The notes below the pieces were generated by a model. The model ran no database searches and was not told the DNA's origin. It was given only the letters and a program-made list of their open reading frames with translations. Of a DNA stretch of 64,000 nucleotides, positions 51,560 through 58,644 are shown in pieces. The position numbers and the translations under genes are program-made. The DNA is from Caldilineaceae bacterium SB0661_bin_34 (GTDB taxonomy: Bacteria > Chloroflexota > Anaerolineae > Caldilineales > Caldilineaceae): the NCBI GenBank assembly GCA_009841145.1, contig VXMJ01000083.1:1-64000 (forward strand). The letters are read 5' to 3'. Each line of letters starts with the position of its first letter. The stretch's first letter is position 1.

Positions 51560-52606
51560 GTGACGGCCGATACGACTTACCCCGCCATTGTGGACGGCCA
51601 CAACGACACCTTGCTGCGGCTGGTGCCCGGACGCGACCAACGGCAAACGGCGTTTCACGAAGAAGGCACGGAGGGACACGTCGACCTGCCGCGCATGCGC
51701 AAGGGCGGCATGGCCGGCGGCTTCTTCGCCATGTACACCCCGGACAAGGACTACCGGGGCGATGCACCCCTGCCGTCGCGGGGACAGGAAGTGCCCCAGG
51801 ACTTCGCCCTGGACTTCGTGCTCCGCATGTTCGCCCTCCTGTTGGATCTGGACCGGACCCTGTCCCCCGAGTTCTCGCTGGTCAGGACCGTGCCGGAAAT
51901 GCTGGATGCCCTGGCCAACGATCGCTGCCTGGCGATTGCCCACATTGAGGATGCGTCTCCGCTGGATCCGGAGTTGACGCTCCTGCCCTTGCTGTACGAC
52001 CTCGGCCTGCGTTCGATTGGGCCGGTCTGGAGCCGCACCAATGCCTTTGGCCACGGTGTGTCCTTCGACTTCCCCGGCTCCCCGGACCAGGGGCCGGGCC
52101 TCACGGAACCCGGCAAGGCCCTCGTCAAGGCCTGCAACGACCTGGGGATCATGATCGACCTGTCCCATCTGAACGAAAAGGGCTTCTGGGACGTGGCCGA
52201 ACTGTCGGAGGATCCGCTGGTGGCCACCCACTCCTGCGTGCACATTCTGTCCAATTCGGCTCGCAACCTGACCGACCTGCAGCTCGATGCCATTGCCGAG
52301 ACCAATGGACTTGTGGGCATCAACTTCAACACGGGCTTCCTGCGGCCGGACGGTGCCACCGACACCTCCACCTCTTTCACCGAAATCGTCAAGCACGCGG
52401 CCTATGTGACGGATCGCATCGGCATCGACCATGTGGCTCTGGGCTCGGACTTCGACGGCGCCACCATGCCCGGCGATCTGTCGGACTGCAGCAAGCTGCC
52501 GGCACTCATGGCATCGCTGGAGGAAACCGGCTTCGACGCGTCGGACCTGCGCAAGCTGGCCCACGGCAACTGGATCCGCGTCCTGCAGCAAACCTGGCAT
52601 CACTAA
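51560..52606 (+). CDS. Membrane dipeptidase (peptidase M19)
   Basis: A 348-residue M19 renal-dipeptidase-family metallohydrolase, active on dipeptides and often D-amino-acid or modified dipeptides. Zinc ligands are visible in VDGHNDTLLR, IAHIEDASPL, IDLSHLNEKGFWDV and ATHSCVHILS, and IDHVALGSDFDG closes the site. It starts at a GTG. No signal peptide is seen. It is the first of four closely packed genes: 22 bp separate it from the aldolase-like gene. Confidence 0.9.
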   Translation: MTADTTYPAIVDGHNDTLLRLVPGRDQRQTAFHEEGTEGHVDLPRMRKGGMAGGFFAMYTPDKDYRGDAPLPSRGQEVPQDFALDFVLRMFALLLDLDRTLSPEFSLVRTVPEMLDALANDRCLAIAHIEDASPLDPELTLLPLLYDLGLRSIGPVWSRTNAFGHGVSFDFPGSPDQGPGLTEPGKALVKACNDLGIMIDLSHLNEKGFWDVAELSEDPLVATHSCVHILSNSARNLTDLQLDAIAETNGLVGINFNTGFLRPDGATDTSTSFTEIVKHAAYVTDRIGIDHVALGSDFDGATMPGDLSDCSKLPALMASLEETGFDASDLRKLAHGNWIRVLQQTWHH

Positions 52607-52628
52607 TTCGGGAGAAAACACATCCGCT

Positions 52629-53555
52629 ATGGACCTGGCAACCCTTCTGGACAGCCTGAACAGCGTCATCGCCATTCCCATCGTGCCCCTCAGGGGCGGG
52701 GCCGTGGACTTCGACGGCCACCAGCTGAACATCCGCTACCTGATGGAGAACAACCATCTGGACAACGACCGCAAACGGGTCGTTTCCGTGGCCGGCACCA
52801 GCCTGCTGCACCACCTGAGCCTCGAGGACCAGAACGGACTCTTTGCGGCCACCGGGGAGGTCATGGGGGACGAGGGCATTCTCATGAGCGCGGTGGTGCC
52901 GAACCCACTGGCGGACGCGCGCTGCCAGATCCGCGCCCACCTGGATCTGGCGCGCCGGCCGGACGTGATTTTGATCATGCCCCTCACCGGGGTCTTCAGC
53001 CCGGACGGTCTCTGCCAGGGCCTAGGCGAACTCGCGGAGGAGTTCAGCGGCGAGGGTGCCCGGTTCCTCTACTACCTGAGAGCCTCCCGGGATCGGGATG
53101 CCGTATTGCAACTGATGGCGGCCTCTCCGCACTTTGTGGGCGTCAAGGTCGGCACGGACGTGGCGGATGCCGCCTACATGGCGGAGCGCGCCCCGGACGA
53201 CACGATTGTGATCTGGGGCATCGGCGACCGCAGCACGGCCGCCGCCCAAAAGGGCACTCAGGGCCATACCTCCGGCACGGCCGTGGTGGTGACCCGCACG
53301 GCGGACGAAATCAACAACGCCCAGCGGGCGGGCGACTGGGACCGCGCCTTGGAGTGGGAGGCGTACATCCAGGCGCTGGAGGACATCCGGTTTCGCAATG
53401 GCCGCGCCTTCAACTACACCGCCGTGATCGAGGCCCTGAACCAGATTGGCGGCGACGTGACCGGCGGCGAAGGCGGGTTCTTCAACCCGCCTGCCGACAG
53501 CGCCCTGCAGGCGGAGGTCAAGGCAGCCATCGCAACAATGGCCCCCCTGCACTGA
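52629..53555 (+). CDS. DHDPS/NAL-family aldolase-like protein
   Basis: A 308-residue TIM-barrel protein of the dihydrodipicolinate synthase/N-acetylneuraminate lyase family. The Schiff-base Lys is in HFVGVKVGTDVAD and a partner Tyr in ARFLYYLRAS. GGGAG at 52608-52612 fixes ATG 52629 although the frame is open to 52431. Members cleave or form C-C bonds next to pyruvate, for example on keto-deoxy sugar acids. Together with the SDR and isomerase behind it, a sugar-acid breakdown route is plausible. Confidence 0.85.
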   Translation: MDLATLLDSLNSVIAIPIVPLRGGAVDFDGHQLNIRYLMENNHLDNDRKRVVSVAGTSLLHHLSLEDQNGLFAATGEVMGDEGILMSAVVPNPLADARCQIRAHLDLARRPDVILIMPLTGVFSPDGLCQGLGELAEEFSGEGARFLYYLRASRDRDAVLQLMAASPHFVGVKVGTDVADAAYMAERAPDDTIVIWGIGDRSTAAAQKGTQGHTSGTAVVVTRTADEINNAQRAGDWDRALEWEAYIQALEDIRFRNGRAFNYTAVIEALNQIGGDVTGGEGGFFNPPADSALQAEVKAAIATMAPLH

Positions 53556-53592
53556 GTTCCTTCATGGCTTCGGCCGAGGAAGCAGCGGCTTT

Positions 53593-54414
53593 ATGACAGA
53601 CAACGGCAAACTGGCCGGACAGACGGCCTGGGTGACGGGGGCGGCGTCCGGCATGGGAGCCGCTGTGGCGCGTCTGTTCGTTGACGAAGGCGCCGCTGTG
53701 GCTGCGGTGGACATTCAGGCCGAACCGGGCGCGCGGGTCGCGACCCAAATCACCGAGTCGGGCGGCACGGCCGAGTTCCACGACTGCGACATCACCGACA
53801 GCAACGCGGTCAAGGCCAGCCTGGACAAGGCCGCGGCATCCCTGGGACCGCCCTCGATCATTGTGAACTGCGCCGGCATCGTCCATGTGGCCAAGCTGGA
53901 CGAGTATCCCGAGTCGGACTGGGACCAGTTGATGGGTGTCAACCTCAAGTCGGTCTACCTGTCCGTGCGGCACGGCATGCAATACCTGCGGCAACACGAA
54001 CGCAGCTACATGGTCAACATCGCCTCCGTGGGCAGTTTCATCGCCCAAGGGGACACACCGGCCTACATCGCGTCAAAGTACGCGGTCCTGGGCCTGAGCA
54101 ACAACATCGCCGTGGACTACGCCCGGGACGGTCTGCGCTGCAACTGTGTCTGTCCGGGCATCACCGACACCCCCATGCTCCGCTACCACTTGAGCACCAC
54201 CCCGGATCCGGAAGAAACGCTGGCCATGCGCCTCAAGCGGGTGCCGACCGGCGTGGTGATCACTCCGGAACAGATCGCCCGAGCCGTGTTGTACCTGAGT
54301 TGCGAGGACTCGGCCGGGATTACCGGCACCTCCCTGGTCGTGGACGGCGGCTACATCGCACCGGCGGAGTGGGAGACTGACATCACCCGATTCATGGACA
54401 ACCAGGAGGCCTGA
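53593..54414 (+). CDS. Short-chain dehydrogenase/reductase
   Basis: A 273-residue classical SDR with cofactor loop VTGAASGMGAAVARL, an N-C-A-G variant of the NNAG motif (IVNCAGIVHV), serine in ASVGSFIAQ and the catalytic YIASKYAVLG. The C-terminus includes GTSLVVDGGYIAPAEW. It is an NAD(P)-dependent sugar or hydroxyacid dehydrogenase by family, 37 bp after the aldolase-like gene and 1 bp before the next gene, so it is part of one operon. Confidence 0.9.
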   Translation: MTDNGKLAGQTAWVTGAASGMGAAVARLFVDEGAAVAAVDIQAEPGARVATQITESGGTAEFHDCDITDSNAVKASLDKAAASLGPPSIIVNCAGIVHVAKLDEYPESDWDQLMGVNLKSVYLSVRHGMQYLRQHERSYMVNIASVGSFIAQGDTPAYIASKYAVLGLSNNIAVDYARDGLRCNCVCPGITDTPMLRYHLSTTPDPEETLAMRLKRVPTGVVITPEQIARAVLYLSCEDSAGITGTSLVVDGGYIAPAEWETDITRFMDNQEA

Positions 54415-54415
54415 A

Positions 54416-55255
54416 ATGCGTGCCCGACTTGCCTGTGCCGACTTCACCTTCCCCTTGCTGGAGCACCATGCATCCCTGCAATTGATCCAGTTGATGGGCT
54501 TCCAGGGCGTGGATATCGGACTCTTCGAGGGTCGATCCCACATTCAGCCGTCCGGGGAGTTTGCGGATCCGGTGCGTTCGGGCCAGCGCCTGGAGCACCG
54601 CTTGTCGAACCTGGGCCTGGAAGTGGCGGACATTTTCCTGCAGTTGGATACGGACTTCGTGTCGTTTGCCATCAACCAGCCGGATGACACCCGTCGGCGG
54701 CATGCCCGCGAGCAGTTCCTGAGGGCCCTGGACTATGCCGCCGCCTGCGGCAGTCGGCACGTCACCACGCTGCCAGGTGTGCGATTCCCGGAGGAATCGC
54801 ACCGGGACTCCCTGGACCGGGTCAAGGAAGAGTTGGCCTGGCGTGTGGAACGGGCACAGCGGCTAAGGCTGGAGTTCAGTGTCGAGGCGCACGTGGGTTC
54901 GATAGTCGACACACCGCGCAAGGCCCGGGCCCTGGCCCGGGGCGTGGACGGCCTGACCCTGACCCTGGACTACACCCATTTCACCCGGCAGGGCGTGACC
55001 GACGAGGAGATCGAGCCCCTCGTGGAACATGCCAGCCACTTCCACTTCCGCGGCGCGCGCCAAAACCGCCTGCAGGCGTCCATGGCGGAAAACACGATCG
55101 ACTACGAACGGGTCCTGACGCGCATGGAGGAGGTCGGCTACCCGGGCTGGCACGCCGTGGAGTACGTGTGGAGTGACTGGGAGCACTGCAACGAATGCGA
55201 CAACGTGTCCGAAACCATCATCCTGCGGGATTTGATCCGCAGGCATTGCACATGA
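54416..55255 (+). CDS. Sugar phosphate isomerase/epimerase (TIM barrel)
   Basis: A 279-residue xylose-isomerase-like protein. It opens MRARLACADFTFPLLEHHAS and carries the metal-ligand pattern FSVEAHVGSI (Glu/His), LTLDYTHFT (Asp/His), HFHFRGARQ (His) and WHAVEYVWSDW (Glu). Its start follows the SDR stop by one base. It is a paralog at family level of the isomerase at 32056. The likely role is epimerisation of a keto sugar in the four-gene pathway. Confidence 0.87.
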   Translation: MRARLACADFTFPLLEHHASLQLIQLMGFQGVDIGLFEGRSHIQPSGEFADPVRSGQRLEHRLSNLGLEVADIFLQLDTDFVSFAINQPDDTRRRHAREQFLRALDYAAACGSRHVTTLPGVRFPEESHRDSLDRVKEELAWRVERAQRLRLEFSVEAHVGSIVDTPRKARALARGVDGLTLTLDYTHFTRQGVTDEEIEPLVEHASHFHFRGARQNRLQASMAENTIDYERVLTRMEEVGYPGWHAVEYVWSDWEHCNECDNVSETIILRDLIRRHCT

Positions 55256-55432: not shown

Positions 55433-56629
55433 TCAAGCCGCGGCCCGTGGATAGCGGCGACCGTTCAGTTGCTTTCCGATGAACGTCGGCCGCACCAGAT
55501 ACTGATAGAGCACCAGGATCAAACAGGTTGCCGCGACCACGACGAGAGCGAGCTTCACGATTCCCGGAAGGGGCATGTTCCTTAAGGGGAGGGGCAGCAA
55601 TATGACGAACGGCACATGGACGAGGTAGATCCAGTACGAGGCGTCCGCCATGTACCGCCAGCGCTGGCTTGGTTTGTCCATGTAGCGGAGGAACAGTCCA
55701 ATCAGGCCATAGGCCAGGAACCACATGGAAAGCGAGAGGAAGGCGACCGCCCCCACATGGTGGACCGTCGAAGTCCCCGCGCAGATCCTGTCCGGACCGG
55801 CGTGGCAGCCGGCGTCGGCGAAGTACCGGTACACGAAGAAGCACACGATTCCCGCAGCGAGATGGAGCCATGCGGGACGCTTGAAGCCTTCCAGCGTCTC
55901 TCGGCGGCAGAACAGCAGCCATCCGACTGTGAAGAACAGGCACCACAGTGCCAGTTGGCGCAGGGTTGGGATCGGACCGGCGTAGTAGTCGATGGCCCAC
56001 GACTGCATCCGGTACAGAATGGTGCCGGTGACCAGGACCAGCACCACGATGCCTCCTCGGTGCAGCAGACGTTCAAAGAGGTCCAGCGTCCAGGTACGCA
56101 CCCGCTCCGGGATGCGAACGGCGAGCGGCCGTACCCCGCTCGCGACCACGCAAAGGATCATCAGATGGTAGAGGAACCACAGATGCAGGAAGATGTAGCG
56201 CACCGCATCCGCTGACATCAGCTCGTCCCTGCCATAGGTATGGGTTGGCGGGACCGAACTGAACCGGGAGGCATACGTCACGACGAAGTACATCGTGGCC
56301 GCCAGCATGGGCCAGGCTACCAGGAACGGCACCCCGATCCGGCTCCATCGATTCCGCAGGAATGCCGGGATGCCCCGTGTCTGCACCAGGTACGCCGCGA
56401 AGAACCCCGCAATCGCAAAAAAGACCGGCAGCTGGAACACACGGATGAAGACGATCACCCAGTGAGCGAGGATGTCGGCCTGGGCATCTTTGTATGGCCA
56501 GGCCTCAAAAACGGTGGGTTCGTAGCTCATCGCGGCGTGCCGAACCACCCCAAGGAGCATCAAGACCGCACGCAGCCGGTCGAGTGAGTGATATCGTGGG
56601 ATCGTGACCCGGGACCGAGTGCCGTCCAC
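55433..56629 (-). CDS. Acyltransferase-3 family membrane protein
   Basis: A 398-residue integral membrane protein with about ten transmembrane segments. The family catalytic His follows an Arg in LDRLRAVLMLLGVVRHAAM, and ADASYWIYLVHVPFVILLPL is the conserved C-terminal helix. Members (OafA, MdoC and others) transfer acyl groups to sugars, lipids or polyketides. The open frame reaches 56836 but would overlap the P450; GTG 56629 sits 17 nt after the P450 stop. The gene is thus probably co-transcribed with the GPP34-P450 gene and may modify its product. Confidence 0.82.
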   Translation of the reverse strand: MDGTRSRVTIPRYHSLDRLRAVLMLLGVVRHAAMSYEPTVFEAWPYKDAQADILAHWVIVFIRVFQLPVFFAIAGFFAAYLVQTRGIPAFLRNRWSRIGVPFLVAWPMLAATMYFVVTYASRFSSVPPTHTYGRDELMSADAVRYIFLHLWFLYHLMILCVVASGVRPLAVRIPERVRTWTLDLFERLLHRGGIVVLVLVTGTILYRMQSWAIDYYAGPIPTLRQLALWCLFFTVGWLLFCRRETLEGFKRPAWLHLAAGIVCFFVYRYFADAGCHAGPDRICAGTSTVHHVGAVAFLSLSMWFLAYGLIGLFLRYMDKPSQRWRYMADASYWIYLVHVPFVILLPLPLRNMPLPGIVKLALVVVAATCLILVLYQYLVRPTFIGKQLNGRRYPRAAA

Positions 56630-56646
56630 GCGCCCTGATGCCTGGT

Positions 56647-58644
56647 TCAGTTGGTCATCGGAGCGTTGTGCGTCCGGCGGCCCAGAACGCGGATTCTGAA
56701 GCCGACGGGCTGCATGGTCGGGAACGATCTCACCCGCAGGGCATGATCCGGAGCAAGCGGCTCCAGAACGAGTTCCCGCAGAATCGTCGCCATTGTGAGG
56801 CAGAGCTGGATTGGGACGAGACCGCTGCCGAGACACCGGTGGTGGCCGGCCCCGAAGGGAGCGTAGGCGCCGGGCTGCCGATGTTCGCCGCGGGCCTGGG
56901 TGTAGCGGTCGATATCGAAGTGCTCCGGTTCCGGAAAGTATTCCTCGAGCGTGTGTCCCACGGCCGTGCCGATCATGACCTGGGTCCCCGCGGGTACCGT
57001 GTGTCCCGCGAACTCGAAGGAGTTGGAGGTCATCCGAAGCACGGCCGGCGATACCGGATGGAGCCGAAGGGTCTCCATCGCCACGCGGCGCGAAACGTCG
57101 AGCCGCCGCAGACCCTCATCGGACACAGGGCCCTGCTCGAGGAGGGCGTCCGCTTCGGCGGTCATGCCTTCCATGAGCTGCGGACGCTTCAGCATGTTGT
57201 AGAGCATGAACGAGCAGGTGCTCGCCGTGGTGTCCAGTCCGACCATGTAGGGTGCCAGCACGGTCAGGTTCAGGTTGGTCTCGGGCAGGAGCTGAGGATC
57301 GGCCTCACGCAAATCGAGCATGAGGTCGATGAAGTCCCGGTTCGTCCCGCGGGGACCCACCGTCTGCTTGTGCGCGAGGACCTTCTTGGCCAATTCAAAG
57401 GCTCGCGTGCGGGCACGCCGGAAGCGCGGGAGCTTCATGACATGCGGCAACGTAGCCGCGCTCAGGAGCAATCCGCCGAGGAGCGTGGCCAGGTCCTGGG
57501 TGTAGCCTTGGGGCGAATGGTCCGCCATCAGGTAGCCCATCTGCTCGGCAATAACGCTCTGGAACGCCGGCAACACCTCGAATGACTTGCCAATCGGCCA
57601 CTTGGCAATCTCGTCGCGGGTGATGTCGACGACCTCCCTCGCCCGCTCCCTCAGGACGCGGGCCGCGTACCCCTTGGCTTGGGCCTTCCGCGTGGTGACA
57701 TGGTCGATGCCGTCCATGGTCAGGATCGAACGCGACGCGTCCATCTGCCTATGGAAGTTCGCCATGGGCTCGAGTGATCGAAAGACGGCTTGCCCGTGCG
57801 ACATCAGGAAGTTGACCGCTTCCGGTCCCGCGATGCACACGAACCGGCGTCCGGGAACGCGTATCCTGAAGATTGGGCCCAGGTCGCGGTACTGGCGGGC
57901 AAGGAACGACACAACTCCCTTTCGCATGGCCAAGCCGTTGCCCATCAGCGGAAGGCCCGGTACGACCGGGATCTCTCTCGGGTGCGGAGGCCCCGGAGAT
58001 GATTCGTCGGGCACCTCCAATCCCTCGATGGCCAAGCTCATCGTCCGGCCGATCAGGTCGAGATTCTTGAGCAGGTCGACGCGATCCTGGATCTGCTCCC
58101 GCTCCTCCGACGACAGAATGGTACGGAACACCCCGCAGGCGTCTGCCAGCGTGATCAACACGATGTCGCGCGGATCCGGGATATCGTCGCCGAATAGCAC
58201 ACGCATGACGCGCAACTTGGCTTCTTCGACCTGTCGCCCGTCCGCGGTGGGGTAGCGCCGCGACCGGGACACCGCGGGAACCAGGGACAGAAGCCCCTGT
58301 GCCTCGGATCTCAGGATTCCGCGCTCAATTAGACGGGCCAGCGCGGCATGTCGAACTTGGTCTCCCCGCTCGGCGATCCGTCCCAGCCAATAGCCCGTGT
58401 CGCGCGACTGGCCTTCGCTTGCAATCTCGGTCAGTGTTGGATCGAGAATGTCGTCGCCGAAAGGCGTGGCGTCCACGAGCACCAGACTCTCGAGATCCGT
58501 GTCGATGCGGTCCTCGAGCGCGAGATCCATCAGCACCGCTCCGGCGAGTGCCAAGTGGAGTGAGCGCGGGGACAGACTGGCGGCCAGATCCCCCCGCCCT
58601 TCGTCCAGGGCGAGAACCAGGATTTCCTCGGCAAACCTCAGCAT
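56647..58644 (-). CDS. GPP34 (GOLPH3-like) domain fused to cytochrome P450
   Basis: A 665-residue fusion. Residues 1-205 form a GPP34 domain: LRFAEEILVLALDEGRGDL, LHLALAGAVLMDLALEDRID, LVDATPFGDDILD and LARLIERGILR are its typical blocks; eukaryotic relatives bind phosphatidylinositol-4-phosphate. Residues 222-660 are a complete P450: I-helix MVGLDTTAST, ExxR in METLRLHP, and the heme loop FGAGHHRCLG with Cys604. No membrane helix is visible. GGAG before ATG 58644 selects this start over 58656 and 58722. Electron-transfer partners are not encoded nearby. Substrate is unknown; membrane docking through the GPP34 part is a plausible inference. Confidence 0.88.
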   Translation of the reverse strand: MLRFAEEILVLALDEGRGDLAASLSPRSLHLALAGAVLMDLALEDRIDTDLESLVLVDATPFGDDILDPTLTEIASEGQSRDTGYWLGRIAERGDQVRHAALARLIERGILRSEAQGLLSLVPAVSRSRRYPTADGRQVEEAKLRVMRVLFGDDIPDPRDIVLITLADACGVFRTILSSEEREQIQDRVDLLKNLDLIGRTMSLAIEGLEVPDESSPGPPHPREIPVVPGLPLMGNGLAMRKGVVSFLARQYRDLGPIFRIRVPGRRFVCIAGPEAVNFLMSHGQAVFRSLEPMANFHRQMDASRSILTMDGIDHVTTRKAQAKGYAARVLRERAREVVDITRDEIAKWPIGKSFEVLPAFQSVIAEQMGYLMADHSPQGYTQDLATLLGGLLLSAATLPHVMKLPRFRRARTRAFELAKKVLAHKQTVGPRGTNRDFIDLMLDLREADPQLLPETNLNLTVLAPYMVGLDTTASTCSFMLYNMLKRPQLMEGMTAEADALLEQGPVSDEGLRRLDVSRRVAMETLRLHPVSPAVLRMTSNSFEFAGHTVPAGTQVMIGTAVGHTLEEYFPEPEHFDIDRYTQARGEHRQPGAYAPFGAGHHRCLGSGLVPIQLCLTMATILRELVLEPLAPDHALRVRSFPTMQPVGFRIRVLGRRTHNAPMTN

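Follow-up and report, generated by a model that had tools for sequence, protein, structure and literature searches.

Each of the parts combined in the locus described here has known relatives. The GPP34 domain family (PF05719) includes human GOLPH3 and yeast Vps74, and the PI4P ligands of human GOLPH3 we take to be W81, R90, R171 and R174. Among the cytochromes P450, an enzyme is counted as CYP51, the family of the sterol 14-alpha-demethylases, at about 40% identity or more to CYP51. A bacterial P450 fused to a second domain is seen in the CYP51-ferredoxin of Methylococcus capsulatus (6mcw, 7snm), and the membrane acyltransferases of the AT3 type (PF01757) include the succinyltransferase MdoC/OpgC. 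Sponge metagenomes have yielded bacterial sterol gene clusters that include sterol methyltransferases, and the bacterial share in sponge sterols and sterane biomarkers is debated (PMC10070321); P450, CYP51, Chloroflexi and SAR202 are absent as terms from the main text of that study. For SAR202 Chloroflexota, the oxidation of sterol- and hopanoid-like compounds by P450s has been proposed (PMC5395668). P450 fusions and GPP34 are each already known, whereas their combination appears to be undescribed; the open-licence literature searched gave no account of a GPP34-P450 fusion or of bacterial GOLPH3-like proteins, which is not proof of absence.

In our study, a stretch of 64,000 nucleotides from Caldilineaceae bacterium SB0661_bin_34 (contig VXMJ01000083.1), called the window here, was found to carry an open frame for a GPP34-cytochrome P450 fusion of 665 amino acids (56647..58644, minus strand, like all its parts). 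Pfam places the GPP34 domain at residues 5-203 (58036..58632; E 2.6e-37, 129.3 bits vs a cut-off of 29.1) and the p450 domain (PF00067) at residues 229-629 (56758..57960; E 1.4e-55, 189.4 bits vs 22.8), both far above the cut-offs. The hallmarks of a P450 are all present, namely the I-helix oxygen-activation motif GLDTT with its acid-alcohol pair (residues 469-473, 57226..57240, within the stretch VGLDTTAS), the ExxR motif ETLR (residues 524-527, 57064..57075) and the heme-thiolate motif FGAGHHRCLG (residues 597-606, 56827..56856), whose Cys604 is invariant in an alignment of 23 fused homologues. On the grounds of sequence this architecture is solid, and the proposal of an earlier note on this DNA, that one protein joins a GPP34 domain to a complete P450, is borne out by the domain search on the 665-residue product and by the intact motifs.

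Far from being a one-off case, the fusion belongs to a widespread family. About 50 fused loci were found in six phyla (Chloroflexota, Gemmatimonadota, Acidobacteriota, Pseudomonadota, Binatota and Latescibacterota). Full-length orthologues of 91-92% identity occur in two other Caldilineaceae genomes; relatives of about 73-85% identity per domain are present in assemblies of Gemmatimonadota, Pseudomonadota (Gammaproteobacteria) and Acidobacteriota. Binatota, Latescibacterota and further Gemmatimonadota have relatives at 43-63% per domain. Since full-length fusions recur in the assemblies of other genomes, the two domains were not joined by the assembly, and we give next to no weight to an assembly or frameshift artefact that brought two separate genes together. 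A misassembly is ruled out by the independent assemblies of these loci; moreover, the linker position is conserved and both domains are under purifying selection, with median dN/dS of about 0.2 (0.195 for GPP34 and 0.203 for the P450 over 91 pairs of intact orthologues; 0.33 for the acyltransferase). The sole point in favour of an artefact is an in-frame TAG between the domains, near codon 222, in one orthologue of 91% identity (G001; L008/L120), for which sequencing error, strain decay or a split gene are candidate causes.

In a sample of 400 Chloroflexota genomes, GPP34 was present in 43, about 24 of which have a GPP34 frame of at least 600 residues; such frames were P450 fusions in all 15 inspected. 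The window genome has five GPP34 genes, comprising the window fusion, a second GPP34-P450 of 48% identity to it (C46), a further fusion on contig C65 and two genes without a fused partner. In the trees, the fused GPP34 domains, B types (a diverged subfamily described below) included, form a group separate from the stand-alone ones (SH-aLRT 95); this group also takes in a GPP34 domain fused to an ABC ATPase and a single stand-alone copy of the window genome. The fused P450s form one group within the window-like set (support 99), which drops to 32 once the distant B types are added. A single old fusion event is the simplest reading of these trees, not a proven one. The high identity of close orthologues scattered across phyla points to horizontal transfer of the window-type fusion between phyla. 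Many of the metagenome-assembled genomes (MAGs) with the fusion bear isolate names from sponge surveys, and the carriers appear to be mostly of sponge origin, an association that is in part presumed and in part based on the work on Aplysina sponges (PMC5649159, PMC6306507).

In eight Gemmatimonadota MAGs (L047-L053, L056; 3' pieces L138-L142) the fusion gene is split by a repeat element directly after the heme-Cys codons; the C-terminally altered copies were rejected as a real variant because this element interrupts the gene at the heme loop. A direct repeat of 14 bp, TG(C/T)CTCGGCAGCGG, is present at each of the two junctions, and element copies elsewhere (L133, L136) come after the same GCCTCGGCAGCGGA. 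The start of the element occurs 13-31 times per genome and has a strong hairpin. In the interrupted loci the gene halves and the acyltransferase remain open, which hinted at splicing or programmed excision. Separate insertions fit equally well, because the first 84 nt of the element are 93-100% alike in six of the eight genomes, above what the host gene mostly shows (about 86-94%), and differ more in L047 and L049. An Rfam search found no intron; a site-specific element, a transposon with duplication and an intron are the candidates. Elsewhere, copies of the repeat precede genes that PADLOC matches to DUF262/GmrSD-like and type IIG restriction systems (L146:4993-11388, L147:4940-6646), and the repeat may therefore mark mobile defence cassettes.

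The AlphaFold2 model of the whole fusion (pLDDT 89, pTM 0.70) falls below a pLDDT of 50 at residues 211-219 (57988..58014), the flexible linker. The structure prediction, which the earlier note had proposed for the interface, gave a pair of folded domains that are flexibly joined and whose mutual orientation is uncertain in the model. Modelled by itself, the GPP34 domain reaches pLDDT 91.5 and matches GOLPH3 9qpq with Z 20.0 (2.6 A over 194 aligned residues), 3kn1 with Z 18.6 and yeast Vps74 with Z about 18, against less than 4.5 for unrelated structures; a profile search also reaches GOLPH3 (3kn1) at E 6.5e-13. The domain is accordingly modelled with the GOLPH3/Vps74 fold. In the profile alignment, the window residues at human W81, R90, R171 and R174 are S25, A34, D95 and R98, and as only R98 of the four ligands is kept, the PI4P pocket of GOLPH3 is not conserved. 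The suggested docking on PI4P is therefore unsupported, though the fold is retained. Another kind of enzyme in the same genome also bears a GPP34 domain: the gene on contig C65 (L116:8523-13011) places it N-terminal to an ABC importer ATPase (ABC_tran and TOBE_2), adjoining a BPD permease and a solute-binding protein. For stand-alone GPP34 genes no fixed partner was found in the neighbourhoods; the neighbours differ by lineage and include ribonucleotide reductase, ammonium transporter, FAD enzyme and ceramidase-like genes.

The closest solved structures to the window P450 are CYP51 sterol demethylases (TM about 0.85, phmmer about 1e-32, 22-24% identity), the best Foldseek match being 4uhl (TM 0.85 by target length, 22% identity). 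This identity lies outside CYP51 membership and is too low for the CYP51 substrate to be transferred to the window enzyme. A link to sterols comes instead from the B-subfamily fusions, which have 30-33% identity to the window protein and a conserved neighbourhood in 12-13 Chloroflexota loci: an MMPL transporter with a sterol-sensing domain is found in 13, a KshA/SdmA-like Rieske oxygenase (KshA_C) and an FAD oxidase in 12 each, and a sterol methyltransferase in 7. In some loci ERG4/ERG24 genes lie near the fusion. In Binatia, a B-type GPP34-P450 lies beside a squalene epoxidase-oxidosqualene cyclase fusion, a sterol methyltransferase, a Rieske gene, a 3beta-HSD-like SDR and ERG24, and by its gene content this cluster would serve de novo sterol synthesis. 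The frame of this B-type gene appears broken within the P450 part, and the same genome also has a window-like fusion. Squalene epoxidase-oxidosqualene cyclase fusions, of about 1265 aa, were seen close to Rieske and ERG24 genes in one Chloroflexota and one Binatia genome (L194:9167-12958, L195:4415-8224).

The B-type P450s retain the heme Cys and ExxR and have lost the I-helix acid-alcohol motif, and for this reason they are possibly not ordinary monooxygenases and may perform other chemistry; YLGD replaces GLDTT in L152:6205-8190, L153, L155, L157, L161 and L164. In the window genome (98% complete), no cyclase, ERG24, sterol methyltransferase or KshA-type (KshA_C) Rieske gene was found, so that the window fusion is linked to sterols by its family and not by its own context; several parts of a sterol biosynthesis cluster are present in the B-subfamily genomes. 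The position of distant copies inside sterol clusters suggests, by analogy, a sterol-like membrane lipid as the substrate of the fusion. Of the substrate classes proposed earlier, a lipid or terpenoid thus gains indirect support through these distant members, and nothing points to a carotenoid.

The coupling to an acyltransferase, also proposed from the window, is supported and holds across phyla. A gene for a membrane acyltransferase of 398 aa, a relative of MdoC/OpgC (55433..56629, minus strand), begins with GTG 17 nt past the stop codon of the fusion; it matches Acyl_transf_3 (E 9.8e-24, 84.4 bits vs a cut-off of 31) and has eight hydropathy peaks. Such a gene lies directly 3' of the fusion in all close orthologues for which the contig includes an intact P450 end. 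Its apparent lack in L039 and L040, from the initial gene calls, was overturned by tblastn, which found it at 78-79%. The linkage is also seen in three diverged fusion subfamilies: the one of L151 and L154 (38-39% overall identity to the window fusion) has its own AT3 gene about 14 nt downstream, and in L122 the fusion, an APH/EcKL-like kinase, an MFS gene and AT3 follow on one strand, AT3 three genes downstream. The acyltransferases of these subfamilies have just 26-28% identity to that of the window, and the pairing is therefore old or recurrent. The genes at 51560-55255, which converge on the acyltransferase from the opposite strand (M19 dipeptidase, DHDPS-like, SDR and xylose-isomerase-like TIM barrel), were found in Caldilineaceae loci only and hence lie outside the fusion-acyltransferase unit.

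The best NCBIfam model of the acyltransferase is MdoC/OpgC (NF003014), at 146.1 bits. The nearest curated model is hence a glucan enzyme, which speaks against a sterol reading, and the acyltransferase might be OpgC-like and act on glucan or the cell surface, its pairing with the P450 resulting from joint transfer or co-regulation instead of a shared pathway, while GPP34 would bind a protein partner instead of a membrane. The loss of most PI4P ligands, the GPP34 on a soluble ABC ATPase and the stand-alone GPP34 genes without a constant neighbour agree with this. However, the score is far under the equivalog cut-off of 338 bits, and the pairing is kept across subfamilies in spite of the low identity of the acyltransferases; we consider this explanation rather unlikely.

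Other genes also adjoin the fusions. A sulfotransferase is next to the C46 paralogue and to Binatia relatives; in one of these (L061:6942-12779) a sulfotransferase, the GPP34-P450, a cupin, MFS and GST follow each other, an order kept in L063 and L064, and L065 shares the sulfotransferase and the fusion. The acyltransferase, sulfotransferase and kinase partners would all modify a hydroxyl group, which would match a P450 product. This variation of partners by subfamily, with MFS or GST genes alongside some fusions, raises the main rival, in which the fusion oxidises foreign hydrophobic compounds that partition into membranes (host sterols or the sponge's terpenoid defences). The hydroxyl would then be conjugated by the acyl-, sulfo- or phosphotransferase encoded nearby, and the product would leave the cell through an MFS pump, as in phase I-III drug metabolism. 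The window genome without any searched sterol or hopanoid synthesis gene and the SAR202 proposal (PMC5395668) favour it further. On the other hand, the window gene has no transporter or GST beside it, the fusion and the acyltransferase are paired with a high constancy that detoxification sets often lack, and the B-type members are placed among biosynthetic sterol genes. Such detoxification with conjugation is possible but doubtful, and it ranks ahead of the glucan acyltransferase with a protein-binding GPP34.

Our preferred reading, held with somewhat less than even confidence, is that a P450 recruited to the membrane adds a hydroxyl to a sterol- or triterpenoid-like lipid, which is probably imported, and that the acyltransferase esterifies this hydroxyl. 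The P450, by sequence a canonical monooxygenase, would be tethered through the flexible linker to GPP34, which may hold this soluble enzyme at the cytoplasmic face of the membrane, docking through a lipid or the tail of a membrane protein rather than through PI4P; both the docking and the substrate we infer. There it would hydroxylate a lipid dissolved in the membrane, with electrons that have to come from a ferredoxin or flavodoxin encoded elsewhere, and the co-encoded AT3 enzyme would act on the hydroxyl. As four searched families of the sterol/hopanoid pathway are absent from the window genome, the bacterium probably takes up its substrate from outside, for instance from a sponge host or the host's food.

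Taken more broadly, and as a speculative proposal, GPP34 may be a reusable bacterial module that recruits membrane-lipid enzymes, with GPP34-P450s tailoring sterols or triterpenoids in two branches; one branch might act in the pathway by which uncultured sponge symbionts make sterols de novo, and the window branch might turn host material into acylated sterols. The bacterial GOLPH3-like domains gain a testable job, that of a module which targets a P450. Moreover, bacterial sterol clusters, those of sponge symbionts included, gain an unassigned oxidase, and from the conserved pairing of P450 and acyltransferase a concrete acylated product is predicted, which can be looked for.

In comparison with the known systems, the B-subfamily loci resemble the sterol clusters of sponge metagenomes (PMC10070321) in the sterol methyltransferase, SdmA/SdmB-like and ERG24 genes, whereas the window genome has no cluster of this kind. 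The window acyltransferase shares the AT3 membrane architecture and a partial 146-bit match with MdoC/OpgC, but it is below the equivalog cut-off, is tied genetically to a P450 and was not seen with glucan synthesis genes. The GPP34 domain is like GOLPH3/Vps74 in domain and fold; it differs from them in about 24% structural identity, in the substitution of three of four PI4P ligands and in being bacterial and the N-terminal module of an enzyme. The CYP51 demethylases are the nearest structures to the P450, yet at 22-24% identity. Like the CYP51 of Methylococcus capsulatus, the window protein is a bacterial P450 fused to a second domain; there the partner is a C-terminal ferredoxin, a redox domain, whereas here it is GPP34.
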